Part shown: positions 24,075-54,848 of the stretch, in pieces
Numbering within the stretch: the stretch's first letter is position 1
Layout of the letters: every line of letters starts with the position of its first letter
From: Hyphomonadaceae bacterium
GTDB taxonomy: Bacteria > Pseudomonadota > Alphaproteobacteria > Caulobacterales > Aquidulcibacteraceae
Reading direction: 5' to 3'
NCBI GenBank assembly: GCA_016791365.1
Contig: JAEUMT010000064.1
Coordinates: forward strand, 1 to 64,000
DNA: 64,000 bases
Position numbers and translations under genes: made by a program
The notes under the pieces: generated by a model
Databases searched by the model: none
What the model was told of the DNA's origin: nothing
What the model saw: the letters and a program-made list of their open reading frames with translations, nothing else

Positions 24075-25478
24075 CTAACAGGGCGACAAAGATTCGAGGC
24101 GCTCTGTGAGATAGTCGGCCAAATCGCTCAACAACGCGTGCTCGTCGCCTGTGGCCGACTGCAATAGGTCATTGGTTTGCAGCAGCGCTTCCGGAAGTGT
24201 GAGCCATGGCTCGCCGCCTTCCGCCGTGCCACGCAGCCGAATGGCGAACTCTGCCTCCAACTCAGCGCGCATCTCGGGAAGCAAGGCGTCAGGTCGCTCT
24301 GCGTAAATCAAGCGCCGTCCGAGCATTTTGTACCGTTCATCGCTTAGGCGTCCGAGGACTGCGTCGCGATCTTCCCATGGTGCTTTGTGAAATTCTTCCA
24401 ATAGTGCGGTGTCGCCAGATTCCAGAAATCCATCGTAGATCATTTTCTCAACATGAATCGCGGGCTCGTACTCCTTTTGAACCGAGCGATAGACGGTTAA
24501 TGCGTGCGCCACAAAATGCTTGTTGTTGTTTAGCCACGCCAATTGCGCCTCCACCATCTGTTGCGAAGGCAGGCGGCCATGCAAATGTTCTGGAATATCG
24601 TCAAGGTGCATCAGTTGCGGAGCGCTATTTATCTTCAAGCGACGAATGGGCTTCGGCGACCCCTTCAGCTTCGCGGCCAGCTTTTTGTCATCGAGCGCGG
24701 ATAGGGCTTGGAGATCAGTGCCCAAGTCCCAGACGTATGCGAGGGAGGACTGTTCCTCGTCAAACTCGATGAGCGAGACAACGTAGGGGCACGGCTTGTT
24801 GAAGAAGTGTTCAGTGAGCAAAAATGCAGACTCTTCGGTGACAAAGTCAGCGACGGCGGCCTTTTGCGCAAACCGCGTGAAATTCGACCAGGCGTCGGGC
24901 GCGCCATCACGAATGAGTCGGCACAGATGGATGGTCGCCTCAACGTCGGCGAGTGCGTCGTGGGCGTTCTCGTGATTGAAGCCATTTGTCGGGGCGACAC
25001 GGTCCAACTTGAATATTGGCTTGCCTTTGTCGCCGGTGGGGATTGTCAGCACACCGGGCGAAAACAGTGCGGTGCATTGCGCGAGTTCCAGCACATCAGC
25101 GCGACAATTGCCTTTTGATTGGGTCAGGTAGGGCGGATGAAGGGTTTGATAGAGCGCTTGTCGCAAAAGCGCTTCATCGAAATCCATGCTGTTGTAGCCG
25201 GCAAAAATAGCCGGCGACCATGACAGCAGTTTGTCCCGAATGGCGCGCACCATCTGATAGTGAGACGGCAGGGCTGGATCAGTAAGCTGCGCCACGGTTA
25301 CGCCCGTTACGCGCATCGCGCCTGGCGACGGCGCCATGTGGCCGTGCAAGCGGCAGCGAATATCAAACCGGTCCAGCTCGTTCAGGTCAGCGTCGGTTCG
25401 AATCGCCGCGAACTGAAGAACTTGGTCGAAGCTGGTATCAATTCCCGTGGTTTCTGTGTCGTAGAAGACAAAACTCAT
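24075..25478 (-). CDS. sbcB: exonuclease I (3'-5' ssDNA exonuclease)
   Basis: This 467-aa protein starts with the DEDD exonuclease motif FYDTETTGIDTSFDQVLQFAAI and continues with AGYNSMDFDEALLRQALYQTLHPPY and NAHDALADVEATIHLCRLI, matching the ExoI catalytic Asp/Glu residues, then the SH3-like and helical ExoI C-terminal parts. Length agrees with E. coli ExoI (about 475). It digests single-stranded DNA from the 3' end. It follows the ImmA and XRE genes by only 7 bases, so it is in their operon, which is unusual for sbcB. Confidence 0.92.
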   Translation of the reverse strand: MSFVFYDTETTGIDTSFDQVLQFAAIRTDADLNELDRFDIRCRLHGHMAPSPGAMRVTGVTVAQLTDPALPSHYQMVRAIRDKLLSWSPAIFAGYNSMDFDEALLRQALYQTLHPPYLTQSKGNCRADVLELAQCTALFSPGVLTIPTGDKGKPIFKLDRVAPTNGFNHENAHDALADVEATIHLCRLIRDGAPDAWSNFTRFAQKAAVADFVTEESAFLLTEHFFNKPCPYVVSLIEFDEEQSSLAYVWDLGTDLQALSALDDKKLAAKLKGSPKPIRRLKINSAPQLMHLDDIPEHLHGRLPSQQMVEAQLAWLNNNKHFVAHALTVYRSVQKEYEPAIHVEKMIYDGFLESGDTALLEEFHKAPWEDRDAVLGRLSDERYKMLGRRLIYAERPDALLPEMRAELEAEFAIRLRGTAEGGEPWLTLPEALLQTNDLLQSATGDEHALLSDLADYLTERLESLSPC

Positions 25479-25485
25479 GTGTCGC

Positions 25486-26028
25486 TCAGGATTTTTCCAG
25501 CCACCGCTGAAGGCGGAATTGCATCGTCACGGTGCTAACCTTGAAGCGTTTTGCGAGGGCTTCAATCTGCTCGTCGTCGAGGTGCCGGCTACTGGGCACT
25601 GTTTGCTCCAGCAATACGTCGGGCACTAACAAGAGTGCGGCGAACTGATTGGCCTCCATTTCAATTGGATCGATTCCCTTGCCCGCCAATGCGTCGCGGC
25701 GAAGGACGGCCAGTTCCTTGTCCACATGCACGCCTGTCTCGATCTTCGTGCGATGGAGCATGAGGTGTCCCAACTCGTGCGCAATCGTGAATCGTTGCCG
25801 GTTTGGGTGATGGAGGGAGTTCACGCCGATGATCGGCACACTATCCTTGAAAAACACCATGCCGGACAATTCGTTGTCCAACGGTCCGAATTGGATGCGT
25901 GCGCCTTCTTGCTTTGCAATGCGCTCTACGGGAACGGCCGGCGCGATAACCTTGTGCTTTTCGAGAAGCCCGTAAGCCATTTGCTCTTGTTTTGTAGGCG
26001 CGCGCGTTGGTGTGCTTTGCGGGGGCAT
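25486..26028 (-). CDS. ImmA/IrrE-family metallo-endopeptidase
   Basis: The roughly 180-aa protein has the ImmA/IrrE zinc site RFTIAHELGHLMLH and a downstream Glu in IEMEANQFAALLLVP, with a C-terminal segment containing a helix-turn-helix-like stretch (LAKRFKVSTVTMQFRLQRW). Relatives cleave partner repressors such as ImmR in ICEBs1. The partner XRE gene lies immediately upstream. I use ATG 26028 just past the XRE stop; an ATG at 26073 would overlap it by 44 bases. It may release repression when DNA is damaged or phage enters. Confidence 0.9.
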   Translation of the reverse strand: MPPQSTPTRAPTKQEQMAYGLLEKHKVIAPAVPVERIAKQEGARIQFGPLDNELSGMVFFKDSVPIIGVNSLHHPNRQRFTIAHELGHLMLHRTKIETGVHVDKELAVLRRDALAGKGIDPIEMEANQFAALLLVPDVLLEQTVPSSRHLDDEQIEALAKRFKVSTVTMQFRLQRWLEKS

Positions 26029-26029
26029 G

Positions 26030-26386
26030 TTAGCTGCCGCGCCGTTGACGGCGTTTGGGCGATGAGTTGGCAACGAATGCCATGACTTCTTCCTGTTGCT
26101 TGTTGTTCAATGGGTCGCCGCTCAGCAGAGGGCGAACAGCTGTTACAGCCGTCGCTGGCGCAGCGCGGGCGGGAAGCAGGGCTTCAACGCCCGGCAGCTC
26201 CAGGACAGATGCCAGCCGATAGAGGTAATGCAGCAAAATTTTCTGCCGGCCGGTTTCGATATTGGCGAGCGAAGCGCGCGACAGGCCAACTTTGTTCGCG
26301 ATCTCATCTTGCGTGCATTTGAGTTCGCGTCGGCGAAGGGCAATCGCCTCGCCGACTCCCTTGTAGAGCGCTTCTTCGTTCATCAT
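26030..26386 (-). CDS. XRE-family transcriptional repressor
   Basis: This 118-aa protein has an N-terminal helix-turn-helix (VGEAIALRRRELKCTQDEIANKVGLSRASLANIETGRQKI, residues about 10-50) and an Ala/Pro-rich tail. It is likely the repressor controlled by the adjacent ImmA-like protease. Two ATG codons in a row (26386 and 26383) give an uncertain start. A 10-bp inverted repeat overlaps the start (26386-26431), a good autoregulatory operator. It faces away from the ubiquitin-like operon and could also control it. Confidence 0.9.
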   Translation of the reverse strand: MMNEEALYKGVGEAIALRRRELKCTQDEIANKVGLSRASLANIETGRQKILLHYLYRLASVLELPGVEALLPARAAPATAVTAVRPLLSGDPLNNKQQEEVMAFVANSSPKRRQRRGS

Positions 26387-26431
26387 TTGTTTATGACTTG
26401 ATATGGGCAATGTGTCAACTACATAAACAAA
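26386..26431. promoter_or_regulatory. inverted repeat operator in the XRE/multi-ubiquitin intergenic region
   Basis: tttgtttatg (26386-26395) and cataaacaaa (26422-26431) are perfect inverted copies, 26 bases apart. One half-site overlaps the XRE start. The surrounding 26400-26470 is strongly A/T-rich compared with the rest of the window (ataaacaaacgtgtataaag), as expected of divergent promoters. A phage-type XRE operator pair is the simplest reading. Confidence 0.65.
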
Positions 26432-26570
26432 CGTGTATAAAGCAAACATTACAAAAGTAAAAACCGTGTGTATGATTGACATTACGGTGTTGGAGGGCCT
26501 ATAGGAGCTGCGCGGTCGCGAATTTCGCCGCGGCCTTCGAGCAAATGCCTCTGAAAGATTGGAGTTTTCC

Positions 26571-27281
26571 ATGACTGGAACGGAGATCGCCGACGACCAG
26601 GGCCAGCGCGCCCGCGGTGACCGGCACACGGTTGAAATTGCGGGCGCGGATTTGATCTTCCGCCCCGTGGAGCTGCGCGATCCGGTGCCGACCGGGCGTC
26701 AAATCGCGGCGGCGTTCGGATTTGAAGACGCCGACGCGGTGATTGTGTTGCAGCAGTTGCCGAACCGAGAACTAGAAGAATTGCGCCCGTCGGAAACGAC
26801 GGACATTCGCGCGCGCGGCATCGAACGCTTCATAGTGATCGTTAGCGATCGCAGTTTCCGGTTCGTGGTGGACGGTCTCAAGCTCGAATGGCCGCTGGCC
26901 AATCCCACGGCGATGCTGGTGAAAACGCTCATCGGCAAGGGCGACGACTACGAGCTGGTTCAGGAACGCGAAGATTGCCCGGATAACGTCATCGAGGATG
27001 ATGAAGTGATCCACCTGCAAGGGCGGGGTACGGAGCGTTTCAAGACGCGCCATAAAACGTCGCGCCACGTTACGGTTACCTACAACCACGAGCGCCGCGT
27101 GTTGGAGGCGCGCATTTATACGACCGAGGAATTGCTTGCCGTCTTCGGGGTGGAGCATGGATACGTGCTCGATCGCATCGCCCACGACGGCGAATTTATC
27201 GAACTCCAGCCGGGCGCACATATCCGCATCAAGGAAGGCATGGCGTTTGTTTCACACGCCCCGTGCGGTGGTTCTTCGTGA
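26571..27281 (+). CDS. multi-ubiquitin domain protein (ubiquitin-like modifier)
   Basis: This 236-aa protein appears to contain three ubiquitin-like repeats: residues about 18-85 (HTVEIAGADLIFRPVELRD), 85-150 (SFRFVVDGLKLEWPL with DNVIEDDEVIHL) and 160-232 (RHVTVTYNHERRVLEARI). Each repeat has the beta-grasp spacing and a hydrophobic-acidic late strand. The C-terminus is CGGSS, so removal of two residues would expose Gly-Gly. The order with E2-like, JAB and E1 genes, all overlapping by 4 bases, matches bacterial ubiquitin-like operons described for multi-ubiquitin families. GGAG precedes ATG 26571 by 6 nt. Confidence 0.85.
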   Translation: MTGTEIADDQGQRARGDRHTVEIAGADLIFRPVELRDPVPTGRQIAAAFGFEDADAVIVLQQLPNRELEELRPSETTDIRARGIERFIVIVSDRSFRFVVDGLKLEWPLANPTAMLVKTLIGKGDDYELVQEREDCPDNVIEDDEVIHLQGRGTERFKTRHKTSRHVTVTYNHERRVLEARIYTTEELLAVFGVEHGYVLDRIAHDGEFIELQPGAHIRIKEGMAFVSHAPCGGSS

Positions 27282-27607
27282 GCCGCGCCGCTGAATTTGC
27301 GCCAGTTGAGGCAGCGTGGCCGGACGCGGAGTATTTCGAGGAAAGCGGCGTGCCGTACGTGTTCTTCCCGGTACTCAAGTTTGATTCCGGAAACACACCG
27401 CACGCTATGCCCGCATTGCTCTGCCCAGCGAATCGCGACGGTTACCCGACGCGACTTTTTCTGGAAAAGAAAATCCCTAGTCGGGGCGACAATTGGAATG
27501 TGTTCCAGATACGAAGCCGCTCATGGTGGGCGTGCTCGTGGAGGGACGTGCCGGCGTCGTTGCCCTGGCTTGCTATCCTTGCCAACCATTTGAGGCCGCT
27601 GCGATGA
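27278..27607 (+). CDS. E2-like ubiquitin-conjugating protein (putative)
   Basis: This 109-aa protein starts at GTG 27278, overlapping the previous stop (GTGA), and ends in an ATGA overlap with the JAB gene. Its sequence (FFPVLKFDSG, GYPTRLFLEKKIP, NWNVFQIRSRSWWACSWRDVP) resembles the small E2-like proteins found with multi-ubiquitin genes. Candidate active-site cysteines are in ALLCPANRDG and WWACSW; I cannot decide which, if either, is catalytic. Position in the operon is the stronger evidence. Confidence 0.6.
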   Translation: MSRAAEFAPVEAAWPDAEYFEESGVPYVFFPVLKFDSGNTPHAMPALLCPANRDGYPTRLFLEKKIPSRGDNWNVFQIRSRSWWACSWRDVPASLPWLAILANHLRPLR

Positions 27608-28113
27608 AGGCTTGCCTGAAAATCGACGGCGCGCTGCTGGACACTATTCGCGACGACTTGCGACGGCCCCATGCGTTCGCGCATGAACGGGTTGGATTTG
27701 TCACGGCCGGCATCATCGCGCTCGCTACGGGCGACCTCACGCTGTTGGCGCGGGACTATCGCCCGGTTGCCGATAACGACTATCTCCGTGACATGAATGT
27801 TGGCGCCATGATCGGTCCGGATGCCATGCGCAAGGGCTTGCAGTTGGCTTACGGCGCGCGTTCGGCGTTGCTGCACGTCCACACCCACGGCGGGCGTGGC
27901 GCGCCGGATTTCAGTGGTGTTGACCTTAGCGAAAGTCAGAAATTTGTGCCGAGCTTCTTCAACGTCGTGCCGTATATGCCGCACGGTATTGTGGTGCTGA
28001 GCGATACATCAGCGCGCGGTCTCTTGTGGCTCGGTCCGAAGATGGCGGCAGTTCCGGTCTTGGAGTTTGTTCGGGTCGGCGCGCCCTATGCTAGATTTGG
28101 AGCCGCCCGATGA
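27604..28113 (+). CDS. JAB/MPN-type isopeptidase (deubiquitinase-like)
   Basis: This 169-aa protein has the JAMM metalloprotease signature: a Glu in HERVGFVTAG, the histidines in LLHVHTHGGRGAPDFSG and the Asp of SGVDLSES. Bacterial JAB proteins in such operons process the ubiquitin-like tail or remove it from targets. The start at ATG 27604 makes an ATGA overlap with the preceding stop; an upstream ATG at 27493 would overlap the E2-like gene by over 100 bases. It precedes the E1 gene, also with ATGA overlap. Confidence 0.88.
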   Translation: MKACLKIDGALLDTIRDDLRRPHAFAHERVGFVTAGIIALATGDLTLLARDYRPVADNDYLRDMNVGAMIGPDAMRKGLQLAYGARSALLHVHTHGGRGAPDFSGVDLSESQKFVPSFFNVVPYMPHGIVVLSDTSARGLLWLGPKMAAVPVLEFVRVGAPYARFGAAR

Positions 28114-29000
28114 GTTGGTTGAAACGGCAGAGCTTCCTTGGGCCGAATAGCGAAGATCTACTGCGAAATGCGACAGTGGGAATCGTCGGGCTTGGCGGCG
28201 GCGGATCGCACATCGGTCAGCAGCTCGCCCATGCCGGAATCGGCAATTTTGTTGTCGTCGATCCCGACACGATTGAGGATCATAACCTCAACCGTCTCAT
28301 CGGCGGTAAATTCAAGTTTTTGAAGCGTGGCAAAGCCAAGGTCGTCATCGCGCGCGATCTGATCCTAGGGATTCAACCGACGGCGCGTGTTCAAATGGAA
28401 CGCTCATTGTGGCAGGTCGCCGCCGAGAGCTTGCGCAGATGCGATGTCATCGTGGGTGGCCTCGATAGTTTCCGCGCCCGCGATGAACTGGAGCGCTTCT
28501 GCCGCCAGAACTTAATTCCGTACATCGACATGGGCATGGACGTAACCAAAGTCGGCGACGGATTCCTTGTTGCCGGTCAGGTACTTTTGTCATCGCCTGG
28601 CGGGCCATGCCTTCGGTGCGTGGGCGTTGTCACCGATGAGCGCTTATCTGAGGAAGCCGCCAAATACGGCGCGGCCGGTGGCAAGCCACAGGTCGTGTGG
28701 CCTAACGGTGTTCTGGCCTCTATCGCGGTCGGATTGCTCATGCAGCTGATTGCGCCGTGGCATCGCAAAGCTGTCGCGTCAGTCTATCGCGAGTTCGACG
28801 GAAACACGCACATTGTGCGCGAAAGCCCGAAATGGAAGTCGCTGGAAGGGCGGTCGTGCCCGCATCATCCCGCCAATGAGCGAGGCGATCCGACATTTGA
28901 TATTCGGCGATGGCTCGAAATGCCCGTGATATCGCCCAAGAAGCCACCATTCTGGCGCGCCATGCTTGAACATTTTAGCGCGTGGTGGGCGCAGCGATGA
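28110..29000 (+). CDS. ThiF/E1-like ubiquitin-activating adenylyltransferase
   Basis: This 296-aa protein has the ThiF fold: the nucleotide site VGIVGLGGGGSHIGQQLAHAG near residue 25, the Asp in VVVDPDTIEDHNLNR with the Arg of the family, and late cysteines (GPCLRCVGV and a GRSCPHHP site) that could bind zinc. E1 proteins adenylate the ubiquitin-like C-terminus. It ends the four-gene block, 31 bases before rmuC. The start overlaps the JAB stop by 4 bases. Confidence 0.9.
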   Translation: MSWLKRQSFLGPNSEDLLRNATVGIVGLGGGGSHIGQQLAHAGIGNFVVVDPDTIEDHNLNRLIGGKFKFLKRGKAKVVIARDLILGIQPTARVQMERSLWQVAAESLRRCDVIVGGLDSFRARDELERFCRQNLIPYIDMGMDVTKVGDGFLVAGQVLLSSPGGPCLRCVGVVTDERLSEEAAKYGAAGGKPQVVWPNGVLASIAVGLLMQLIAPWHRKAVASVYREFDGNTHIVRESPKWKSLEGRSCPHHPANERGDPTFDIRRWLEMPVISPKKPPFWRAMLEHFSAWWAQR

Positions 29001-29031
29001 GCGTGATGGATATCAAGTGGGGAATATTCAC

Positions 29032-30654
29032 GTGCTAGGCCTTGCTCTGCAAATAGCAACCATCGTCATCCTGTTGGTGGTGGCATTTCTGGTCTGGCGC
29101 TCGCGCGCACCAGCCGCGGGTAGTGATGCGGGTCTTCGCCAGGTTGAAGCGGCGATGCGAGGCGAGTTTGGATCAAGCCGGACGGAGGCGGCGGTATCTG
29201 CGCAATCGCTGCGAACCGAAGTAGGTACGCAGTTTCGCGAGTTCGCCGATGATATGCGGAAATTGCTCGGCGACGCAGGCGCGGCACAAGCGCTCCAGCT
29301 GACAACCTTCAGCACGGGTCTTGCCGATGGACGAAAAGAATCACAGGCCGCAGCCCAGTCCCTCCGCGAGGAGGTGCTTAAGGCGTTCCAAGCCCTTTCC
29401 GACACGGTGCGCGCCAACCTCGGCCAGATGGCCCAAGGGCAGCAAAACCAATTTGAAGCCTTCGCTGCGACCCTCAATACAAATGGTGTTGCCGCCACCG
29501 CTTCGGCGAAAGAGTTCCGCGAGCAAATGACCGCGACGTTGACGCGGCTTGGTGAAGCGCAGGCCGCGCAGTTCACGCTCCTGGCCAACCAGCAAGGCGA
29601 GCGCCTCGATGAGATTGGCAAAAAATTGGCCGAACTTACTGCCAAAAATGAACAACGCTCAGAGGAATTGCGGAAAAGCGTCGAGGAGCGTCTTGAAAAA
29701 CTGCGGGTCGATAATGAGGCAAAGCTCGAACAAATGCGCCTGACCGTCGATGAAAAACTGCAAAGCACTCTGGAAACCCGTCTCGGCGAGTCCTTCAAAC
29801 AGGTCAGCGAACGTCTTGAGCAGGTTCACAAAGGCCTTGGTGAAATGCAAACGCTTGCCACCGGCGTTGGCGATCTCAAGCGCGTCCTGAGCAATGTGAA
29901 ATCCAGGGGCGGCTGGGGCGAGGTGCAGCTGGGTATGCTGCTCGACGACATGCTGACCCGCGACCAATTCGAGGCGAATGTTCGGGTGCGCCCCGATTCA
30001 AACGAGATTGTTGAATTCGCCGTTCGCTTCCCCGGCAAGGAAGATGGGACGCCGCTCTACCTGCCCATAGACGCCAAATTCCCGCAGGAAGACTACGATC
30101 GTCTTCTGACTGCGCAGGAAGCCGGCGTCACTGAAGACATTGATAAGGCTGGCGCGGCATTGGAGCGGGCTATCCGTGGCCAGGCAAAAACGATTTGCGA
30201 GAAATATGTGCATCCGCCCCACACCACAGACTTCGCTATTATGTACCTGCCCACCGAAGGTCTATTCGCAGAAGTGATCCGCCGGCCAGGTTTGGCCACT
30301 GATCTGCAATCGAAGCACCGCATAATGGTGACCGGACCAACGACGTTGGCCGCGCTGCTCAGCAGCTTGCAGATGGGTTTCCGTACGCTTGCAATTGAAA
30401 AGCGCTCAAGTGAGGTGTGGCAGGTCTTGGGCGCTGCGAAAGCAGAATTCAAGAAATACGGTGATGTCTGGGACAAGCTTGGCAAGCAACTGGATACGGC
30501 TAGGAAGACGGTTGAAGACGCGGGCAAGCGAACTCGCGCGGTCGAGCGCAAGTTGCGCGATGTTGAAACGCTTGAGCCAATTCAGGGCGCAGCCGACATT
30601 TTGGCCCTCGCGGCGCCGGATGATGATGATGACGAGCCCCATGAGGAGGGCTAG
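29032..30654 (+). CDS. rmuC: RmuC-family DNA recombination protein
   Basis: This 540-aa protein has an N-terminal membrane helix (LALQIATIVILLVVAFLVW), a long coiled coil over about residues 40-290, and the RmuC nuclease-like domain (VGDLKRVLSNVKSRGGWGEVQLGMLLDDML, LPIDAKFPQEDYDRLL, FAIMYLPTEGLFAEV, ALLSSLQMGFRTLAIEKRS). RmuC limits recombination between short repeats. It is usually chromosomal; here it sits 31 bases past the E1 gene, apparently in the same operon. The GTG at 29032 was chosen because the membrane helix starts there. Confidence 0.9.
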   Translation: MLGLALQIATIVILLVVAFLVWRSRAPAAGSDAGLRQVEAAMRGEFGSSRTEAAVSAQSLRTEVGTQFREFADDMRKLLGDAGAAQALQLTTFSTGLADGRKESQAAAQSLREEVLKAFQALSDTVRANLGQMAQGQQNQFEAFAATLNTNGVAATASAKEFREQMTATLTRLGEAQAAQFTLLANQQGERLDEIGKKLAELTAKNEQRSEELRKSVEERLEKLRVDNEAKLEQMRLTVDEKLQSTLETRLGESFKQVSERLEQVHKGLGEMQTLATGVGDLKRVLSNVKSRGGWGEVQLGMLLDDMLTRDQFEANVRVRPDSNEIVEFAVRFPGKEDGTPLYLPIDAKFPQEDYDRLLTAQEAGVTEDIDKAGAALERAIRGQAKTICEKYVHPPHTTDFAIMYLPTEGLFAEVIRRPGLATDLQSKHRIMVTGPTTLAALLSSLQMGFRTLAIEKRSSEVWQVLGAAKAEFKKYGDVWDKLGKQLDTARKTVEDAGKRTRAVERKLRDVETLEPIQGAADILALAAPDDDDDEPHEEG

Positions 30655-31584: not shown

Positions 31585-34500
31585 CTACGCCTCGTCGTCC
31601 GGCGCGTCGTCCAATGGGAGGTCTTCCGCGTCGTTCAATCCAGCGGGGGTAAAGGGCATGCGAGGTGGTGCAGTACGCCACATCAGCGCGACTTCTTCCG
31701 GGGTCAGGCTGTAGGCGGCATTCACGAGGTCAGAAAGCTGCTTCTCCAACGAGAAAATTTCGGCGCGTGCACGGCGCGCCGGCTCGATCGTGGCAGCGTG
31801 CTCACGCTTTAGATCAGCAATATCGGAGGCGGAGAGCTTTTGCCGTTTAGGCAGGGCGGCCATAACAGCGGCGACGAAACCATTCGGGTCGAGCGCTGCA
31901 ACATTCGACAACGCGGTGGTGGCACGCTCGATGCCCCGCGTATGTCGGAGCCAGTCAACGACAATCGTATTTGCGTTCTGCACCGTAGAGGTCTTGGTGC
32001 GGACCTCGCCGACGAGTTCTTGGGCCGTCGACGCTGCGCTCGCCGAAAACGGCGCGAGCGGCAGATTGTCCATCATATAGCCCATGGGGGACAACGCTTC
32101 GTCCTTGAGGTGCGTGAGGTAGCGCCAATTGTGCCACCACGTGATCGGGGCGTTGAGCGCGGCAAGCACTGAAAGGTCGTCCGTTGGTAAAATGAAGGTC
32201 TTATCGTTTCCAAAGCGACCTTTATCATCGAAGGCGTACGACGGATGGAACTGGATCACTTGGTAGATGATTTTCGGACGCTCGAAGGCCTGCCAATAGT
32301 CAACGGCGTCCTGAATTTCATACCAGGCATATGTACCTTCCTTCCGTCCACTCCATTTTTCATTGGGATCGGACGATTTCCAGTTCTTCGGCTTGGGGTG
32401 TAGTTGGGATTCAAATGTCTGAAGGTGTCGGAGGACTGAAGGGTAATCAGCGATCTTGATGCCGCGACGGGCAAAGATCATCCAAAGGTTGGCCCATGGT
32501 GCGTTCCAGCGGTCAACATCTTGGCCGCGGAGATAGGGCTTGATGATTTCGTCGGCCTTCGCATCCTCCGCAATCAAGCGATCGCGAGTCGGTGTGTCGA
32601 TGAGGAATGCTTCATTGAATCCGGTTTTGATGCCGTATTGTGGACTTACGCGAGCATAGTCCTTGAGCGGAACTCCCTTCGCTTTGAGCTTCAAGAGAAG
32701 CGCAACAACATTCGGAGGTTCAAGTGTCCAGCCCTCTTTGGAAAAGTGTGCACGCGGCAATGAATACGTAGCGGCGATAACGGCTTCGTGCAGTCCCTTC
32801 TCGGGAACGTCGTCGCGTGGAATGACGCAAACGTCTGACGCGCTGGGTGTTGCTCCAGCTTGCGGCTTCCTCACCACGACCACGGATGGGAAAACATCTG
32901 CATCCGGGAAAAATTTCTTCGCGTGACCGAAGTCCGCGACGAATTCGAGCCAAGCCCGTTCGGCGAACATTTCGCGCAGGCCCTCGGCGTAGCCTGCGCG
33001 CATCCATTTGTTCGTTACGACATAAGAGAGACGCCCACCCGGGCGGAGCAAGGTCAGGCCCTGTTCGTAAAAATAGACGTAGAGGTCGGCTGAGCCATCA
33101 TAGGTGGCAGGAAAGCCGCGCTTCAGCGCCGGCTTAATTGGCATTATCAGTTCATGGCGCACATAGGGCGGGTTGCCGATGACGGCGTGGAATCCGCCCT
33201 GCAGCGCTGGCTCTTCCCATTGGCTCCAGACACCGGGAAAGGCGACCTGCCAATGGTGGAAGCGCTCATCGCGTACGATGGTGCGAGCGCGGCTCAGCAC
33301 AGACGCAAACCGTTCAGCGTCTTTGCGCATTGACGCGGGTACGCGATCAAGTTGGTTGCGGCCCTCTGTGCGGGGATCGCCTGCGTCGCTGGCGCCCAGT
33401 CGCACGCGCCCGCGCGCAATGTCGAAGGGGTCGCCAAACTGCCCATCAAGCCAGGCGCGCACGGCAGCGTTGTCTTCCTTGTCGAGTTTAAGCCAATCGA
33501 GCGCAAATAGGATGTTCAAGAACGAGCCAAACGGGCGCGTTTCCTGTTCGATCCCGTCGAACAGGGTCTTCGACTGGTGGACTTCAGCGATATCGACGTC
33601 GGTGACGCGCTCAAGCTTCTGCATCGCCACGGCTTGCGCCATCGCCTTTTGCAGGGGCTCGGCGATGAGCAGTGCGGCGCCCAATTTTTCAAGACGCGCG
33701 CGGGCCTGACGAACCCAGAATCCGAACAGAGAATTCCCGCAGCGCAGATGGTGGTCGAGAAAGGAGAGCGGGGCGCCGACCGTAAACGTGTGCAGCCAGA
33801 GCGCCACTTTGGCGAGTTCTACCGCCATCGGGTTCTTATCGACGCCGTAAATGCACCGCTTGAGGATCGTGCGGCGAATAATGTGCCGATCGTCGAGATG
33901 CTCGACGACGAATGGCCATTTGTGCTGGACGGCCTGGCGGATGATGTCTTGACGGGTGGTCTCGACGTTGTTGAGAACCGGCGATCGATATGGCGTCTCT
34001 GACCAATCAACGAGCGATTCAGATTCGGCGATAGCTGCGAGCGTTCGGTCCGCCATCCAGTCAACCAGGCTGACCAGGAAATGCCCCGAGCCCATAGCGG
34101 GGTCGCAGATCTTGAGATCGAGTATGGCGCCGGCCGGATCGAGACCTTGAAGTTCGGCGAGGCGAAGTTCGATCGGGCGTTTGTCGCTCGCTAACGCCGC
34201 CGCGCGTTCGCGAAACGCCTGCAAGCGCTCTTCAACGAACGGGCCGACCGCCTTTTCGATGATGAGCATCACCAAGCTATCCGGCGTGTAGTAGCTGCCG
34301 GATTCGTGGCGCGCCGTGTCGTCCGCCTTGACGACGACGGCGCCCGCATCGACCTGCAGTTCGTATTCGAGCGTGCGTTCGTACACCGTGCCCAATTGCT
34401 GGACCGAGAGGTCACGATAATTGATGTAGCGCGGTTCGCCGTCTTCGATCCGATGCGACAGGCCGTAGATCACGTCGGCGATGGTGGCGTCCGGTAGTTC

Positions 34501-35691
34501 GACGCGGCCGAGCAATGGCGCGTTCTCTTTCGTGAACAGGCCGCCATTGTAGGGCGGGATGCCCAGCGCATCGTCGCCTTCAGCGATCGCCTTGAAGACA
34601 GCGGATAGCTTCGGCCAATAGGTGGCGATCGTCGAGGAAAACACTTGCGCGCGGGCGCGGCGATCGGCGATGTCGAGACGCATCGCTGTCAGCGAATAGG
34701 TTTTGTATGGCTCCCGGCCGTCGGGCAGGAGATCGCGATCTTCCGCATAGACTACGAACAATAGGCGGTAGAGCAGAATGAGCGCGCTCTGGCGCACATC
34801 CTCCAAATACGGCTGCTCGATCGTGGCTGGGCGCGCCGGATCATGTTTCGAGATGGCGGCGACGAGCTTTGGAAACAGCTCGCCGAACACTAGGCGGGAA
34901 AGATCCTTGGTGACCTTTTCTTCCCAGACCTGGCCGGTCTCGCGCGCGAGGTCGTGAAACGTCCGCGCGCCATCCATCGGAAGGAACGCCGCCTTGCCGA
35001 AGAACAGATAGAAGAGACGCAAAGTGTGATCTGGCGTCAGGCGCTCGTCGGCGCGCTCGATCAAGTCGAGCTCATGGCCGGGCAGTTCGAGGGCCTTGGC
35101 GAGGTCGATCTCGAAGAAGTCTTCCGACACTGAAAGCGCACCCTGAAAATAGAGGCGCCACTTTTGGCCGTTGGTGAGAATGCCGAGCCGCACCTTGCCG
35201 CTGGTCTGGATGTCAACGCGGCTCAGATATTGGAGCATCTGAGTTGAGGGGACGCCTTCTTCCTGCTCGTCGCGCTTGTCGGCGCGGTCGAGCGCGCGCG
35301 CCCACCGTTTTGCTTCAACGACGGCGAGCCCGAATTGATAGCGCTTCCACGTCTGCGCCTCGGCGCCGGCCTTGGCTTTCGCATCGGCGTCAGCGAACAG
35401 TAGCGCGTCGGGAACTTGCTTACGTCCCTTCGTCGATAGGATTTCCTGAACTTGGATATCGCTCCAGCCGATCAGTTCGAGCACGGGATAGATGAAGTCC
35501 CGTTCGGTCTGGGCTTCGTTCGGTTTGGTCGTCTTGAGAAACGTCGCCGCGATCTTGGCGAGCGCGGTCTTGAAGGCGGCGAAATCGGCCGCTTTCAAGC
35601 CACGCCAAGTGTCGGAACGGGCGACGCCTTCCAGGAGATAGTCGCGCGTGAAGAGGTTCCCAGCGATCAAGCGAAGCGGCTCCGGCGCCAT
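31585..35691 (-). CDS. type IIG restriction-modification enzyme (Eco57I-like)
   Basis: This 1368-aa protein combines nuclease and methyltransferase. Around residues 90-125, PDALLF...VVEAKRW resembles a PD-(D/E)xK nuclease core. The adenine methylase has motif I DPAMGSGHFLVSL near residue 530 and motif IV IGNPPYVRHE near residue 840, with YCYTPDSL-like GSYYTPDSLVMLIIEKAV between. A TaqI/Eco57I-like specificity region follows (GQDVDRWNAPWANLWMIF, KTFILPTDD). One polypeptide would both cut and methylate. It is transcribed alone, and the divergent gap holds a Phd-type operator. Confidence 0.88.
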   Translation of the reverse strand: MAPEPLRLIAGNLFTRDYLLEGVARSDTWRGLKAADFAAFKTALAKIAATFLKTTKPNEAQTERDFIYPVLELIGWSDIQVQEILSTKGRKQVPDALLFADADAKAKAGAEAQTWKRYQFGLAVVEAKRWARALDRADKRDEQEEGVPSTQMLQYLSRVDIQTSGKVRLGILTNGQKWRLYFQGALSVSEDFFEIDLAKALELPGHELDLIERADERLTPDHTLRLFYLFFGKAAFLPMDGARTFHDLARETGQVWEEKVTKDLSRLVFGELFPKLVAAISKHDPARPATIEQPYLEDVRQSALILLYRLLFVVYAEDRDLLPDGREPYKTYSLTAMRLDIADRRARAQVFSSTIATYWPKLSAVFKAIAEGDDALGIPPYNGGLFTKENAPLLGRVELPDATIADVIYGLSHRIEDGEPRYINYRDLSVQQLGTVYERTLEYELQVDAGAVVVKADDTARHESGSYYTPDSLVMLIIEKAVGPFVEERLQAFRERAAALASDKRPIELRLAELQGLDPAGAILDLKICDPAMGSGHFLVSLVDWMADRTLAAIAESESLVDWSETPYRSPVLNNVETTRQDIIRQAVQHKWPFVVEHLDDRHIIRRTILKRCIYGVDKNPMAVELAKVALWLHTFTVGAPLSFLDHHLRCGNSLFGFWVRQARARLEKLGAALLIAEPLQKAMAQAVAMQKLERVTDVDIAEVHQSKTLFDGIEQETRPFGSFLNILFALDWLKLDKEDNAAVRAWLDGQFGDPFDIARGRVRLGASDAGDPRTEGRNQLDRVPASMRKDAERFASVLSRARTIVRDERFHHWQVAFPGVWSQWEEPALQGGFHAVIGNPPYVRHELIMPIKPALKRGFPATYDGSADLYVYFYEQGLTLLRPGGRLSYVVTNKWMRAGYAEGLREMFAERAWLEFVADFGHAKKFFPDADVFPSVVVVRKPQAGATPSASDVCVIPRDDVPEKGLHEAVIAATYSLPRAHFSKEGWTLEPPNVVALLLKLKAKGVPLKDYARVSPQYGIKTGFNEAFLIDTPTRDRLIAEDAKADEIIKPYLRGQDVDRWNAPWANLWMIFARRGIKIADYPSVLRHLQTFESQLHPKPKNWKSSDPNEKWSGRKEGTYAWYEIQDAVDYWQAFERPKIIYQVIQFHPSYAFDDKGRFGNDKTFILPTDDLSVLAALNAPITWWHNWRYLTHLKDEALSPMGYMMDNLPLAPFSASAASTAQELVGEVRTKTSTVQNANTIVVDWLRHTRGIERATTALSNVAALDPNGFVAAVMAALPKRQKLSASDIADLKREHAATIEPARRARAEIFSLEKQLSDLVNAAYSLTPEEVALMWRTAPPRMPFTPAGLNDAEDLPLDDAPDDEA

Positions 35692-38786: not shown

Positions 38787-40040
38787 TCAAACGGATGCCG
38801 CCACAGCCTCAGCGCGTTGCATCACGATGTTCGCAAAGCGGCTGAGTTCGGGGGCGTCGAATCCCCGCGCAGCAATGGAGTCCGCCACGTTGCGTGCTTG
38901 ACTGATCGCTGCGGCAGCCAGTTCTGCTGTCCGTCGTCTGACGAAGGCGCCACCAAGCCCAGTATCGGCTGCAAATTGCGTCCAAGGCGCCAGCTTCAAA
39001 TCCTCGATCGTCGCGAGGCCGGCAATCTTCATGGCCAGTTTCGGAGCCACATCGGGATAGGCAATCGTACACATCAAATCGTACAGCGGCGCCAACACCG
39101 TTCCATCTGGTCCATAGAGCAGGCTGTAATTCTTGCCGTGCGCATCCGCGTTGCCAACGATCAATTGAAAGATGGCTGCATCGAGAAGCTTCAACACTTC
39201 CAATGCGGGACGTGATGTTGCGTCGCGCAGCAATTGAAAGCCGACCTTGAACGTCGGTCCGCCTTCAGCGGCGTATTTGTGCTCAGGCGGAATGCTAAGC
39301 GCCTGGCAGAAATCTTCTTGGTGCAGGCGATGGGCAGCGCCAGTGGCGTCGATTACCCGATCGTATCGGATGACAAGAAGAAATGGTCGATCCTTCACGC
39401 GGCGCGGTTCGACACCCGCGACCGACAGGCCGAGAGCCGCAGCCAGACGCATGGCAAAGGCTTCGTTCTCCGTTGTTGCTGGAAAGCGCGTCATCGGCGG
39501 TTTCAGAATGTGCGTGGTCGGCTGGCCGGGCGCGGGTAGAGCGACCTGACCATCGACGAGGACGATCGGAATCTTCGACTGTGCGCCGGCGAGAGAGAGC
39601 CGCAAGCCCTCATCGCCCGCGAGAAACGGACGTGTCGGCAACGCGTCCAGCAAATCGACCAACGCATTGTCGCCCAGCGGTTCGCGTGCAACCGCGCCGT
39701 CATAGACAGGGGGCGTTTCGCCTTCAGGCCACAAAGTCAGCGCGCCAGCCACGTCGCCGCCGAGTGCTTTCAGGAAAGCAAAGTCGTTTCCTTTCGAGAT
39801 GCCAAGCGCGCGCGCGACCGCGTCGCGCTGCGCTTCCTCCGGCAATAAGCCGGCGAAGAACGGCCGCGTGCGCCGACGATCGAATGGCTCGGCTTGCTTT
39901 GGAAGCGACCGTGACAGCGCGGGCGCATTCGGATCAGCAAGCCAATCGGGCGCATAGACGAATGTCGTGTCGCCGTGCTCGTCGAGGCGTAGCGTGCCAA
40001 CGATCGCGCCGTTCCACCAAACGGTGAGGGCGCTCTTCAT
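38787..40040 (-). CDS. hipA: HipA-family kinase toxin
   Basis: This 417-aa protein is a type II toxin kinase. The N-subdomain (LTVWWNGAIVGTLRLDEHG) precedes GISKGNDFAFLKALGGDVAGAL and SLAGAQSKIPIVLVDG. The catalytic and metal sites are in VGNADAHGKNYSLLY and APLYDLMCTI. HipA kinases phosphorylate targets such as a tRNA synthetase and induce persistence. The start overlaps the hipB stop by 4 bases. Confidence 0.92.
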   Translation of the reverse strand: MKSALTVWWNGAIVGTLRLDEHGDTTFVYAPDWLADPNAPALSRSLPKQAEPFDRRRTRPFFAGLLPEEAQRDAVARALGISKGNDFAFLKALGGDVAGALTLWPEGETPPVYDGAVAREPLGDNALVDLLDALPTRPFLAGDEGLRLSLAGAQSKIPIVLVDGQVALPAPGQPTTHILKPPMTRFPATTENEAFAMRLAAALGLSVAGVEPRRVKDRPFLLVIRYDRVIDATGAAHRLHQEDFCQALSIPPEHKYAAEGGPTFKVGFQLLRDATSRPALEVLKLLDAAIFQLIVGNADAHGKNYSLLYGPDGTVLAPLYDLMCTIAYPDVAPKLAMKIAGLATIEDLKLAPWTQFAADTGLGGAFVRRRTAELAAAAISQARNVADSIAARGFDAPELSRFANIVMQRAEAVAASV

Positions 40041-41397: not shown

Positions 41398-43296
41398 ATG
41401 GGCTGGCGTATTGCGAGCGCGCTGATCTTGATGATCGTAGGCTTCACCGCTGCGACGCAATTCATCGCGCACGTGTTCGCTTATCAAGCCGCACTCGGAA
41501 CGCCGATCCTGACGATCGGCGAGACGCGCATCTATGCACCGTGGTCAGTCGCTGCCTGGGATGCGCGCTGGGCCGAGCGTTATACACGGCCATTCGCCAT
41601 CTCACGCCTCATCACTTTTGGGAGTGTCGCTGTCGCGGCGCTGGTCGCGGCGAGCGCGCTGGTAAAGTCGCACGTCCTCAAACCATTCGGCGCCGCCGCC
41701 TGGGGCGGATTCGACGATTGTGAAGCTGCTGGATTGTTCGCGGCGCAGGGGACCGTGCTCGGTAAGTTTGCCGGCGAGATTCTCTGCTTCGATGGGCCGG
41801 AGCATCAATTGCTTGTCGGCGCGTCTCGGTCGGGCAAGGGCCGCGGCCATGTCGTGCCGACGCTGCTAACCTGGCCGCGATCGGCGCTGGTGCTCGATGT
41901 GAAGGGCGAACTCGCCGATGGCGATCCGCGTGTCGGCTTTCCGGGCACCGCCGGTTTTCGCGAGACAATCGGACCAGTGCTGCGCTTCGCGCCCACGCGC
42001 GGGGACTCGATCTCCTTCAATCCGCTCTTCGAGGTGCGCCTCGGCGCCGACGAAGTGCGCGACGTTCAGAATATCGTCGAGATCATTGTCGATCCCGCCG
42101 GCGATGGGCGCCATCAGGACTTTTGGGACCGCTCCGCCAAGCAGGTAATCGTCGGTCTGATCTTGCACGTTCTCTACGCCGAACCACTGGCGCGCAAGAA
42201 CCTCGCTACCGTGCGCGAGAAGCTGCGCGATCTGCAGAACACGGCCAACGAAATGCGCACGACGCTGCATCGGCGCAATCCGGCGACGAACATGCCGGAG
42301 GTGCATCCTGAAGTCCTGCACGCCGCTGAGAGTTTCCTCGCGGGCGAGGAGCGCTTGCAATCGGGTGTCAAGGCGACGGCCGAAAGTTTTTTCGGTCTGT
42401 TTGCCGATCCCATCGTGGCGGCGAAGACGGCGACATCGGATTTCCGTGTCGGCGATCTGATGTGCGGCGCAACGCCGGTGACGTTATTTCTGCAGCCGCC
42501 GCCGTCAGACGCGCAACGCCTGATGCCGTTGATGCGGCTTATTCTGAACCAGATTGCGCGCGCGCTCATGGAAAAGCAGACCCAAGACGCGCAAGGGCGC
42601 GAGAAAAAGCATTCACTGCTGCTCGTCCTCGACGAGTTTCCCCAGCTCGGCCGGATGCCGTTCTTCGAGACGGCTATGGGCGCGATGGCTGGCTACGGGC
42701 TCAAATCCTATTTGGTCTGCCAGAGCCTCAATCATATCACGCGCGCCTATGGCCGCGACAACGTCATCCTCGACAATTGCCATATCGTGACAGCGTTCGC
42801 CGCCGCTGACATGGATACCGCGAAGGCTCTCGCGGCCATGGCCGGCGAAGTCTGGGAGATGCGACCCCAAGAATCGGTGGATCGGCCGCGCGCGCTGCTC
42901 TTTGCGCGGGGCTCGACAACGATGCGCGAAGAGCGGCGGCCCTTGATGCTGCCGGGCGATGTCCGCGCGCTTCCGCGCGACGAGCAATTGACCTTCATCT
43001 CCGGGTCAAAGCCGATCCGGTCGCGCAAGTTGCGCTTCGATCGCGAAGCGATCTTCCAAAGTCGGCTGCGGCCAAGCGCCGGAACAAAGCTCCCGCTCAC
43101 GACGGCGCACGATTGGGTCCAGGTGGCGCCGCTTGGCCGGCTTGTCACCGACAAGAAGGGCGCAACGCGCGTGCAGCCGCCGCCGCCGGCAGGTCAAGCC
43201 GACCTCTTCGGACATTTGAGCAATTCCGAACGCGCGTCGGCGGGGCTTCACCAACCACCGCCGGATGCGCCGCGCCAGCAAGCAACGGGGATCTGA
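41398..43296 (+). CDS. traG: TraG/VirD4 type IV coupling protein
   Basis: This 632-aa protein has two N-terminal membrane helices (about residues 5-30 and 70-90). Walker A is GASRSGKGRGHVVPTLLTWP near residue 145, Walker B is LLLVLDEFPQLGRM near residue 407. It links the relaxosome to the mating channel. GGAGGGGGCG precedes ATG 41398. It leads the mating operon and lies 281 bases from the divergent LuxR-type gene. Confidence 0.95.
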   Translation: MGWRIASALILMIVGFTAATQFIAHVFAYQAALGTPILTIGETRIYAPWSVAAWDARWAERYTRPFAISRLITFGSVAVAALVAASALVKSHVLKPFGAAAWGGFDDCEAAGLFAAQGTVLGKFAGEILCFDGPEHQLLVGASRSGKGRGHVVPTLLTWPRSALVLDVKGELADGDPRVGFPGTAGFRETIGPVLRFAPTRGDSISFNPLFEVRLGADEVRDVQNIVEIIVDPAGDGRHQDFWDRSAKQVIVGLILHVLYAEPLARKNLATVREKLRDLQNTANEMRTTLHRRNPATNMPEVHPEVLHAAESFLAGEERLQSGVKATAESFFGLFADPIVAAKTATSDFRVGDLMCGATPVTLFLQPPPSDAQRLMPLMRLILNQIARALMEKQTQDAQGREKKHSLLLVLDEFPQLGRMPFFETAMGAMAGYGLKSYLVCQSLNHITRAYGRDNVILDNCHIVTAFAAADMDTAKALAAMAGEVWEMRPQESVDRPRALLFARGSTTMREERRPLMLPGDVRALPRDEQLTFISGSKPIRSRKLRFDREAIFQSRLRPSAGTKLPLTTAHDWVQVAPLGRLVTDKKGATRVQPPPPAGQADLFGHLSNSERASAGLHQPPPDAPRQQATGI

Positions 43297-43299
43297 GCC

Positions 43300-43734
43300 A
43301 TGGCGCGCGACAAGATCACCATCTACCTGACAGGCGACCTGCAAGACCGGATTGGCGCCGCGGCGACGCGCCAAGGCAGATCCGTCTCCAGCATCATCGT
43401 GGAGGCGGTGCAGGCGCGCTATGGGCCCAAGGACGGTGATCAGATTGATCCGGCGCTGCGCCAGGTGGCGCGCATGGAAGCGCGGCTCGACAAGGCGATC
43501 CGCGACAACATCATGGTCAAAGAGGCGCTGCTCCTCTTCGTCCGCGTCTGGCTAGAACACAATCCTCCGCTCGATGAGCATCTGGAGGAAAGCGCCGCCG
43601 CCAGTGCGGCGGCGCGCTTCGAGCGCTTTCTGGATTTCGTGGCTCAAGCGATCAGTTCGGGACGCTCTCTGGCGATCTTTGAGCCAGCCAGTACGTCGCC
43701 GTCGAATGGCGCCCTGGAAGAGGTTGCGTCATGA
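43300..43734 (+). CDS. ribbon-helix-helix (CopG-like) protein of the trb operon
   Basis: This 144-aa protein begins with an RHH fold (KITIYLTGDLQDRIGAAATRQGRSVSSIIVEAVQARY) and continues with a helical tail. A CopG-like gene between traG and trbB is a known arrangement in alphaproteobacterial elements. It may bind DNA at oriT or regulate the operon. It starts 3 bases after traG and overlaps trbB by 4. Confidence 0.85.
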   Translation: MARDKITIYLTGDLQDRIGAAATRQGRSVSSIIVEAVQARYGPKDGDQIDPALRQVARMEARLDKAIRDNIMVKEALLLFVRVWLEHNPPLDEHLEESAAASAAARFERFLDFVAQAISSGRSLAIFEPASTSPSNGALEEVAS

Positions 43735-44690
43735 GCGTTCGCTCGATCGGTCTGGTGCGCCGCCGCTCCGCAATCGAGCGGGCCTTGGGCGAGGGTGTCG
43801 CCGCCGCGCTCGCGCGGGCCGACGTGGTTGAAGCGATGATCAATGCTGATGGCGCTCTATGGCTCGACGCGGTCGGCGAGGGGCTGGTCAATACCGGCAT
43901 TGTTTTGAGCGCGCACGACCGCGAAGCGGCGATCAGGCTGCTGGCGCATGAGGCCGGCGAAACCGTCGGCGAGGACCGCCCGACGCTTGCAACAATCCTT
44001 CCCGACACGGCGGCGCGTGTGCAGGCTGTGCTGCCGCCGCTCAGCGCGGCGCCGATCCTGGTTATCCGCAAACGCCCTGACGTGATCTTCCGGCTGGACG
44101 ATTATGTCGCCGCCGGCGTCGCGACCACATTGCAAGCCGATCGATTGCGACAAGCGGTTGCGGAACGGCGCAACATCGTTGTCGCTGGTGGGACGGGCTC
44201 AGGCAAGACGACGCTGCTCAACGCGCTGCTGGCCGAACGCGCCTTCTCGGATGCCCGCGTCGTCATTCTGGAAGACACGGCCGAGCTTCAATGCGCAAGC
44301 GCGAACGTAGTCCAACTTCTAACCAAGCGGACCGATCCTCCCGTCGCCATGCGCGACCTCGTGCAAACGACGTTGCGGCTTCGCCCTGACCGCATTGTCG
44401 TTGGTGAGGTGCGAGACGGCGCGGCGCTTGAAGTGCTCAAGGCGTGGAATACCGGCCATCCCGGCGGCCTTCTGACGCTGCACGCGAACTCCGCGGCCGA
44501 CGCGCTCACGCGGCTCGAAGATCTCTGCCTGGAGAACATCGCGGCTTCGCCGAAGCGGCTCATCGCGAGCGCTGTCGATGTTATCGTCTTCATCACGCGC
44601 CCAAAAATTCATGAAGGTGGGGGCGGGCGCGTACTCACCGAGATCGTGAGCGTCAACGGCCTTCGCGGGGAATCCTATGTCTTGGAGTAA
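43731..44690 (+). CDS. trbB: TrbB conjugal transfer ATPase (VirB11-like)
   Basis: This 319-aa protein is a secretion ATPase with Walker A VAGGTGSGKTTLLNALLAE near residue 145, Asp box VVILEDTAELQ, Walker B-like LRPDRIVVGEVRDGAALEVLKAWNTGHPGG, and the His box LTLHANSAADALTRL. Such hexamers power pilus assembly. It overlaps the RHH gene by 4 bases. Confidence 0.95.
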   Translation: MSVRSIGLVRRRSAIERALGEGVAAALARADVVEAMINADGALWLDAVGEGLVNTGIVLSAHDREAAIRLLAHEAGETVGEDRPTLATILPDTAARVQAVLPPLSAAPILVIRKRPDVIFRLDDYVAAGVATTLQADRLRQAVAERRNIVVAGGTGSGKTTLLNALLAERAFSDARVVILEDTAELQCASANVVQLLTKRTDPPVAMRDLVQTTLRLRPDRIVVGEVRDGAALEVLKAWNTGHPGGLLTLHANSAADALTRLEDLCLENIAASPKRLIASAVDVIVFITRPKIHEGGGGRVLTEIVSVNGLRGESYVLE

Positions 44691-44694
44691 CAAC

Positions 44695-45018
44695 ATGCAG
44701 CGCGCAGAAATCGCCAAAGCACCGAAGGTCGTCGCTATCGCCCTCGCTCTCGCGGCGCTTGCCGCGCCTGCTTACGCGGCAGGCTCTGGCATGCCGTGGG
44801 AAGGTCCGCTGCAGCAGATCGTGGATTCGATAACCGGCCCGGTGGCTCGCGCCGCCGCTGTCATCGCCATCGTGATCGCCGGCATTACCATTATCTTCTC
44901 GGAAGGCGGCGGCGGGGTGCGCAAGCTCGCCTTCGTCGGGCTCGGCATCGCGATCATGTTCGCGGCGGTCAGCTTCTTCATGGACTTCTTCGGCTTCGCG
45001 GGCGGTGCGGTGCTGTGA
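44695..45018 (+). CDS. trbC: TrbC pilin precursor (VirB2-like)
   Basis: This 107-aa protein has a signal peptide (VVAIALALAALAAPAYAAG) and two membrane helices (AAAVIAIVIAGITIIF and LAFVGLGIAIMFAAVSFF), with a tail rich in Gly. It is the conjugative pilin, processed by the TraF-like peptidase at 22160. TTGGAG lies 7 nt before ATG 44695; ATG 44677 is an alternative. Confidence 0.9.
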   Translation: MQRAEIAKAPKVVAIALALAALAAPAYAAGSGMPWEGPLQQIVDSITGPVARAAAVIAIVIAGITIIFSEGGGGVRKLAFVGLGIAIMFAAVSFFMDFFGFAGGAVL

Positions 45019-45281
45019 TGGAGGATGAGCCCGAAGGCTATCGCGTGCCGCTACGCACGAGCTTGACCCGGCCGATCCTGCTCGGCGGCGTGCCGCGTGC
45101 GTTTGCGATCCTCAACGCGACGATCGGCGCCGCCATCGGGTTTGGACTGCAACAGCCTTTGATCGGCTTGCCGCTTTGGGCGATCGCCCAAGGCGCGGCG
45201 GCTTGGGCCGCATCGCGCGATCCCTGGTTCCTCGACACCTGGCCTCGGCATCTCGCCAAGCCAAGCTTCCTCGACGCGTGA
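45018..45281 (+). CDS. trbD: TrbD (VirB3-like) channel protein
   Basis: This 87-aa protein (VPLRTSLTRPILLGGVPRAFAILNATIGAAIGFGL) has the VirB3 pattern: a short cytosolic start, RPxLxxGxP and two adjacent membrane helices. Its ATG overlaps the trbC stop by one base (TGATG). VirB3/TrbD works with the VirB4/TrbE ATPase encoded next. Confidence 0.92.
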   Translation: MEDEPEGYRVPLRTSLTRPILLGGVPRAFAILNATIGAAIGFGLQQPLIGLPLWAIAQGAAAWAASRDPWFLDTWPRHLAKPSFLDA

Positions 45282-45293
45282 AGGCGAACACTC

Positions 45294-47789: not shown

Positions 47790-47798
47790 GAGCAGCCA

Positions 47799-48509: not shown

Positions 48510-48521
48510 GGATAGCGCGCC

Positions 48522-52313: not shown

Positions 52314-52325
52314 GGAGCGAGACCC

Positions 52326-52541: not shown

Positions 52542-52613
52542 TCATGTCGCGGCAAAAAAGCCACTGCTGAGCGCGGAATTTTACCTGCGTCGCAGACGTG
52601 ATACTCTCCGGCC

Positions 52614-53300: not shown

Positions 53301-53369
53301 CGTTTCACCGAATGCCCAGGCACAGGATTCGCGGTTGCGTTGCGCACGGCCCCAGCCAAATACTCGCGG

Positions 53370-54815: not shown

Positions 54816-54848
54816 TTCGCGGTTTGAGCCTTGGAATCTATCGAAAAT

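Follow-up and report, generated by a model that had tools for sequence, protein, structure and literature searches.

What an exonuclease I (ExoI) gene is doing opposite a bacterial ubiquitin-like (Ubl) conjugation operon is the question raised by a 64,000-nucleotide (nt) stretch of DNA from a Hyphomonadaceae bacterium (assembly GCA_016791365.1, contig JAEUMT010000064.1, positions 1 to 64,000), referred to here as the window. Two operons diverge at this locus. On the + strand (26571-29000) lie, in order, genes for a 236-amino-acid (aa) multi-ubiquitin modifier precursor (BubA-like; 26571..27281), a 109-aa E2-fold protein (BubB-like; 27278..27607), a free-standing JAB/JAMM peptidase (BubC-like; 27604..28113) and a free-standing E1/ThiF adenylyltransferase (BubD-like; 28110..29000), joined by successive 4-base overlaps (GTGA/ATGA) at 27278-27281, 27604-27607 and 28110-28113. 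On the - strand lie genes for an XRE repressor (CapH-like; 26030..26386), an ImmA/IrrE metallopeptidase with a HELGH motif (CapP-like; 25486..26028 from an ATG, with a TTG start at 26073 possible) and ExoI (SbcB-like, DEDDh type; 24075..25478). The ImmA and ExoI genes fall mostly beyond the piece 26030..30654, to which an earlier, sequence-only reading was attached. The genes, coordinates and overlaps given by that reading, with rmuC next after the E1 gene, held when the sequence was read again, and its grouping of ExoI with the XRE–ImmA pair proved its most informative detail.

The interpretation that we favor, at a probability of about 0.62, is that the locus encodes a DNA-damage-inducible Ubl conjugation operon, from a BubE-less branch related to the Bub pathway and carried on a conjugative element, in which ExoI removes the inducing signal. 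During normal growth the CapH-like XRE repressor would keep both divergent promoters shut. Single-stranded DNA (ssDNA) arising from phage attack or other damage would activate the CapP-like ImmA protease, XRE would be cut and both operons would be turned on. The JAB peptidase would trim the Ubl precursor after an invariant glycine at position -4, releasing x-S-S; E1 would adenylate the new C-terminus, the E2-fold protein would help transfer the modifier to its targets, and JAB could also undo conjugation. Co-induced ExoI would degrade the ImmA-activating ssDNA and so set a threshold or end the response, while RmuC would be a neighbor outside the mechanism. What was observed comprises the genes and their predicted folds, the conserved residues and synteny, and a recurrent three-gene controller. 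The cleavage site, conjugation, its targets, the role of ExoI and a defensive purpose are inferred; the switch is proposed by family resemblance, the Ubl chemistry by homology to Bub, and the ExoI role from its place in the controller set together with known ExoI chemistry.

Relatives of the operon were gathered with its JAB protein. A tblastn search of plasmids matched 17 records, 9 of them at ≥80% JAB coverage; 7 of these were used, the other two being a replicate and an R. leguminosarum record that is split. A JAB alignment, scanned against a genome collection, added 70 loci on genome contigs, which with the window and the plasmids makes 78 (72 distinct rows in the tree alignment; L093 and L066 look truncated). 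E2, JAB and E1 were recognized in 78/78 loci and the multi-ubiquitin profile matched 72/78. Bacteria from several phyla share the four-gene order, so the arrangement is not a product of chance, and the check for a conserved neighborhood that had been proposed thus came out positive. We take the source taxa to be mostly Alphaproteobacteria, with Beta-, Gamma- and Deltaproteobacteria, Acidobacteria, Verrucomicrobia, Nitrospira and Bacteroidetes also represented. A sample of 385 genomes from the window's class contained a single one with a JAB match at E≤1e-10, the window's own, which indicates that the branch is rare and patchy. Phage records gave no JAB match.

Family, fold and residue comparisons support the assignment of the + strand genes to Ubl conjugation, as the sequence-only reading had proposed. 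The precursor matches PF14452 over three beta-grasp stretches (3.5e-30), and its nearest PDB relatives are multi-ubiquitin proteins (9d59, 4.7e-39). It ends in ...PCGGSS; the pattern G-x-[SA]-[SA] closes the protein in 70 of the 71 loci read, 65 of them with G-x-S-S, and G229, at the BubB junction, is the last residue of the BubA construct whose structure was solved. The predicted JAB cut is placed after the glycine of this motif. At L077, L085, L088, L089, L091 and L092 the same E2–JAB–E1 genes come with a modifier of 86-108 aa that has just one Ubl domain, and five of these six have the G-x-S-S end.

The protein starting at 27278 had been called E2-like. Although a profile search returned no Pfam match for it (PF14462 included), its predicted model has an E2/UEV-type fold, best matched among solved structures by Citrobacter BubB. 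The UEV (ubiquitin E2 variant) domain of TSG101, tried as a rival fold, was rejected on a Z score below that of BubB; UEV is itself an inactive E2 fold. Two tryptophans (W73, W83) are present in 78/78 loci and S87 and H104 in 77/78, and no cysteine column of the E2 alignment exceeds 40/78. In the model, S87 falls in the stretch that links the final strand to the final helix. A weak profile match pairs it with the serine of BubB W-S-R-H, and it may occupy the position equivalent to that of the E2 catalytic cysteine. The JAB protein also has no Pfam match. Its JAMM residues are conserved (E28, H93 and H95 in 78/78; S104 and D107 in 77/78, with one gap), its model has a JAMM fold with BubCD as best match (9ea4, TMq 0.81), and its profile matches BubC (98.4%, E 4.2e-15). 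Structure alignments comprised 58 rows for E2 and 49 for JAB, drawn from the window and the genome-contig loci. E1 matches PF00899 (1.7e-29), with Citrobacter BubCD as best PDB match (5.6e-19; profile match 99.9%). Cysteines C167 and C170 (77/78) and C250 (76/78) probably form a zinc site; C111 and C131 are kept in 70/78 and 46/78, and no conserved catalytic cysteine was recognized in the 78-locus E1 alignment. Y186, present in 77/78, aligns by eye with BubCD Y370, the residue altered in PDB entry 9eav according to its title; the profile alignment, which has a gap at this point, leaves the two residues unpaired.

The facing operon carries the putative switch. XRE matches HTH_3 (1e-9) and the PADLOC capH model (3.2e-8), and ImmA matches PF06114 (4.3e-23) and PADLOC capP (8.8e-34), with HExxH intact in 47/47 loci that have an ImmA match; an XRE–ImmA switch, as suggested beforehand, is therefore plausible. 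PMC13373217 reports CapW or CapH+CapP in association with 219 of 544 Bub operons and describes CapP as a protease that ssDNA switches on and that cuts CapH; PMC10904395 gives the same account of CapP. With a DNA-damage switch on such operons already known, ExoI (PF08411, PF00929) is what differs here. Scored on four selected genes before each operon, the upstream regions of the 78 loci contain XRE–ImmA–ExoI in 17, XRE–ImmA in 30, XRE only in 9, RES and/or Xre genes of toxin–antitoxin type in 10 (both in 8) and other genes in 12. Flanks are shorter than 2.5 kb upstream in 10 loci and 2 kb downstream in 9, so all neighbor counts are lower bounds. The ExoI cassette faces the Ubl operon in 16/17 loci, and at the remaining one (L065) stands ahead of it on the same strand. 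In L025, L027, L030, L040, L044, L046, L049, L056, L059 and L093 the RES/Xre genes take the place of XRE–ImmA; the name RES comes from plasmid annotation, and Pfam identified the Xre partner only.

The three-gene cassette also occurs apart from this operon type. Among the 385 class genomes, ExoI was matched in 32 (E≤1e-10) and ImmA in 14 (E≤1e-15); both were found in 4, the window's included, and were adjacent in all 4, leaving 28 ExoI genomes and 10 ImmA genomes with no match to the partner at these limits. Sampling of the 31 other ExoI genomes covered 13 regions in 12 genomes, and 3 of these regions contained the cassette. At L138 it lies opposite a DUF6791-E1/DUF6527 (BubE) operon with a weak multi-ubiquitin match, at L139 opposite a cyclase of the cyclic oligonucleotide-based antiphage signaling system (CBASS) with a phospholipase-type effector, and at L141 opposite a CBASS cyclase with an HNH–SAVED effector, with a small open reading frame (ORF) between. 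On plasmids, the 7 best of 41 ExoI records all had ImmA adjoining. Four of the 7 belong to JAB-type operons, three of which come from R. leguminosarum plasmids that are nearly identical. L151 and L152 are opposite DUF7665/ThiF operons, and L153 is opposite CBASS with a small ORF between; all six non-JAB cassettes are upstream and on the opposite strand. The ThiF operons (L151 4048-6949, L152 4098-6937), which encode a DUF7665 protein and unnamed small proteins, are perhaps another ubiquitin-like system. In the ExoI tree, 23 cassette copies fall on one side of a branch from the 10 standalone copies fetched (support 82.8), and the three CBASS copies are nested among the Ubl ones, which suggests exchange of partners.

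Two other explanations deserve weight, and we regard each as possible though unlikely. In the first, ExoI is an effector that attacks incoming DNA by degrading its 3' single-stranded ends, the Ubl operon acts alongside it by modifying proteins of the host or the phage, and SbcCD, AddAB and RmuC do the same job as ExoI at some loci. Intact acidic and histidine residues in all 17 ExoI copies (D7, E9, D101, H173 and D178, presumably the catalytic ones) would suit such an effector, as would the SbcCD-type genes downstream of the operon at L040, L044 and L050 and the AddAB-type genes at L026 and L058 (downstream, same strand) and L025 and L049 (opposite strand). However, ExoI is grouped with a repressor and a protease, on the strand opposite the Ubl operon in all but one of the cassette loci; the same controller also accompanies CBASS operons already equipped with effectors, and the other nucleases are sporadic.

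The second explanation starts from the mobile setting. Type IV secretion genes (41398-54665) and a phage-type integrase gene (54831-55844), the latter beside a dihydrouridine synthase gene, lie in the window, and the operons seem to be carried in an integrative conjugative element; comparison of the integrase/dihydrouridine synthase junction with the rest of the window gave no convincing direct repeat for the second element end (best 14 nt). A system for stress response or element maintenance, for example by controlling how the conjugative element is transferred or stably kept once damage occurs, rather than antiphage defense, would fit this location, the plasmid-borne relatives and the toxin–antitoxin type genes upstream at 10 loci. 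It would also fit the statement in PMC13373217 that phage protection by Bub operons has so far not been demonstrated. Against it stand the similar controller opposite CBASS and the IetAS-type pair (AAA ATPase and S8 protease) directly downstream of E1 in 10/78 loci (L028, L029, L053, L054, L062, L063, L064, L074, L075 and L078), a call that rests on models scanned on L029 (PADLOC IetA 9.9e-80, IetS 2.4e-37) and on clustering for the other nine.

A bolder proposal is that ExoI is the unrecognized third part of a portable XRE–ImmA–ExoI damage controller that is swapped among CBASS, Bub-like and other ThiF operons, a built-in off-switch that removes the protease-activating ssDNA, and that the Ubl branch conjugates through the E1 tyrosine and the E2 serine in place of a catalytic cysteine. 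We hold this full version as speculative, a little less probable than the two preceding explanations.

At the other extreme, the E1 and Ubl proteins might perform no conjugation and serve sulfur transfer or another small-molecule reaction, in keeping with an E1 of ThiF/MoeB size that has no conserved catalytic cysteine. This is improbable: an E2-fold protein and a JAMM peptidase accompany E1 in every locus, the best structural matches are Bub enzymes, and the recurrent neighbors that were annotated, a minority of the neighbor clusters, include none that is metabolic. Least credible of all is a single integrated defense system of RmuC, Ubl operon and ExoI cassette, since RmuC, although it follows E1 by 16 bases on the same strand and has domain relatives in described defense systems (Shield, PMC10952713), occurs at 1/78 loci and is absent from the 18 kb examined of the nearest relative, L033.

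The joining of RmuC to the system in the sequence-only reading therefore did not survive, and RmuC was rejected as a component. The gene (29017..30654, + strand; PF02646, 1.9e-74) has a GTG start at 29017, past the E1 stop at 29000; an alternative in-frame TTG upstream at 28966 is possible, and an overlap with E1 is probably absent. A 28-protein RmuC profile found only the window's copy among the ORFs of the 78 loci (4.4e-22), with no other at E≤1. A second RmuC lies elsewhere in the window genome (G000:C38:32930-33793); tblastn with the operon RmuC at E 0.01 does not reach it, and the positive controls L103, L104, L106 and L138 matched. RmuC was also matched in 30 of 31 relatives' genomes searched. 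Its presence elsewhere in the genome, and beside the operon at the window locus alone, marks the operon copy as an accessory neighbor, probably co-transcribed with the Ubl genes.

Other neighbors were noted in passing. The IetAS loci are without ExoI, and their ImmA ORFs are mostly longer; ExoI and IetAS coincide at 0/78 loci, but both have clustered distributions on the tree (4 and 2 changes), and no conclusion is drawn from their lack of co-occurrence. The window also encodes a 1368-aa Eco57I-type methylase (31585-35691, - strand; closest PADLOC models DrmMI and type IIG enzymes), a relative of which, by clustering, adjoins the IetAS locus L075, and a HipA-type kinase (38787-40040, - strand).

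The sequence-only reading had also proposed an operator shared by the two operons. The XRE/multi-ubiquitin intergenic region contains one exact 10-nt inverted repeat, TTTGTTTATG/CATAAACAAA (26386..26431), with arms at 26386-26395 and 26422-26431, 26 nt apart; a repeat of equal length arose in 2 of 200 shuffles. In L033, whose concatenated proteins are 62% identical to the window's, the first arm is identical, the adjoining TGTGTCAACTACA is kept and the second arm retains 8 of 10 bases. The repeat is suggestive of a shared operator at this locus and stands as a candidate for one. As a general feature the shared operator was dropped: in 16 upstream regions tested (the same-strand cassette locus L065 was left out), an unusual inverted repeat, as long in ≤6/200 shuffles, was present in four (window, L033, L058 and L081).

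Several observations weigh against the damage-inducible conjugation operon that we prefer. ExoI was not seen in 61/78 loci (some contigs end early), which means that the Ubl operon does not need it, and 10 of the 14 ImmA genomes in the class sample have no ExoI match. Support for the ExoI branch is modest, and at L139 the cyclase lies ~2.4 kb from the cassette with unassigned ORFs between. The remaining 12 of the 16 upstream regions have no unusual repeat. The E2-like protein, besides its lack of a Pfam match, resembles BubB relatives weakly by profile (24%, E 8e-4) and has a Foldseek E-value to BubB of 0.12. Since both E1 and E2 are without a conserved catalytic cysteine, conjugation could fail or use other chemistry. 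Finally, a BubE profile, which recovers 5/8 comparison loci kept out of its building, matched 0 ORFs in the 78 loci, and PF20137 has no match anywhere in 65/78 of the genomes or records behind them. DUF6527 occurs somewhere in 13/78 of these, with contig numbers that are not matchable to loci. As BubE was not found, the operon is classed not as canonical Bub but only as a related branch.

How does this locus compare with described systems? Its four genes correspond in order to BubA-BubB-BubC-BubD. The class was described as polyUbl operons (PMC1779556) and is named Bub in PMC13373217, which also covers CapH+CapP beside Bub; the earlier view that the arrangement is not a described system was overstated. 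A literature search found no published link of ExoI to a CapH/CapP-type controller; the key Bub and CapH/CapP studies were outside its coverage and may mention one. The Enterobacter/Citrobacter Bub operons (BubAB-BubCD-BubE) share with the window the order Ubl–E2-fold–JAB–E1 and adjoining CapH/CapP-type genes, and they provide the closest match, by structure or profile, for three window proteins (BubB, BubCD and BubCD for E2, JAB and E1). In the window, by contrast, all four proteins come from separate genes, with neither JAB and E1 nor Ubl and E2 fused; its E2 is shorter and lacks a PF14462 match, and no BubE/DUF6527 gene was found beside operons of the branch. PolyUbl operons of row 6e in Table 1 of Iyer et al. 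2006 (PMC1779556) likewise have tandem Ubl repeats, JAB, E1 and mobility, and in some an inactive E2/RWD-like protein as a separate gene, as with the cysteine-less E2 here; in most of them, however, JAB forms one protein with E1, and the table also lists a metal-binding protein (Y). Two Bacteroidetes relatives with JAB and E1 in one ORF (L100 and L101, the former also with Ubl and E2 in one ORF) link the unfused branch to the fused polyUbl operons. BilABCD antiphage operons also unite Ubl, E2, JAB and E1, but BilB has a catalytic cysteine, as described in PMC11354881, whereas E2 of the window branch has no conserved one. The branch is thus a compact one, with separate JAB and E1, no BubE and no conserved catalytic cysteine, simple enough to reconstitute.

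The controller invites the same comparison. Window ExoI matches the reverse transcriptase-associated SbcB (RTasSbcB) of the PADLOC DRT model over the model length (1.1e-119), but a Pfam scan of 18 window proteins found no reverse transcriptase family. The CapH–CapP controller, as set out in PMC13373217 and PMC10904395, is likewise an XRE repressor with an ImmA/IrrE metallopeptidase (HExxH) beside an immune-type operon; the window and other loci differ in having exonuclease I as a third gene on the same strand. Bub-type operons with CapH/CapP were known, and what the literature search did not turn up is a portable XRE–ImmA–ExoI cassette with ExoI in the controller. The damage controller of several immune operons may thus carry its own ssDNA-degrading enzyme, which would make the shut-off of inducible immunity directly testable.

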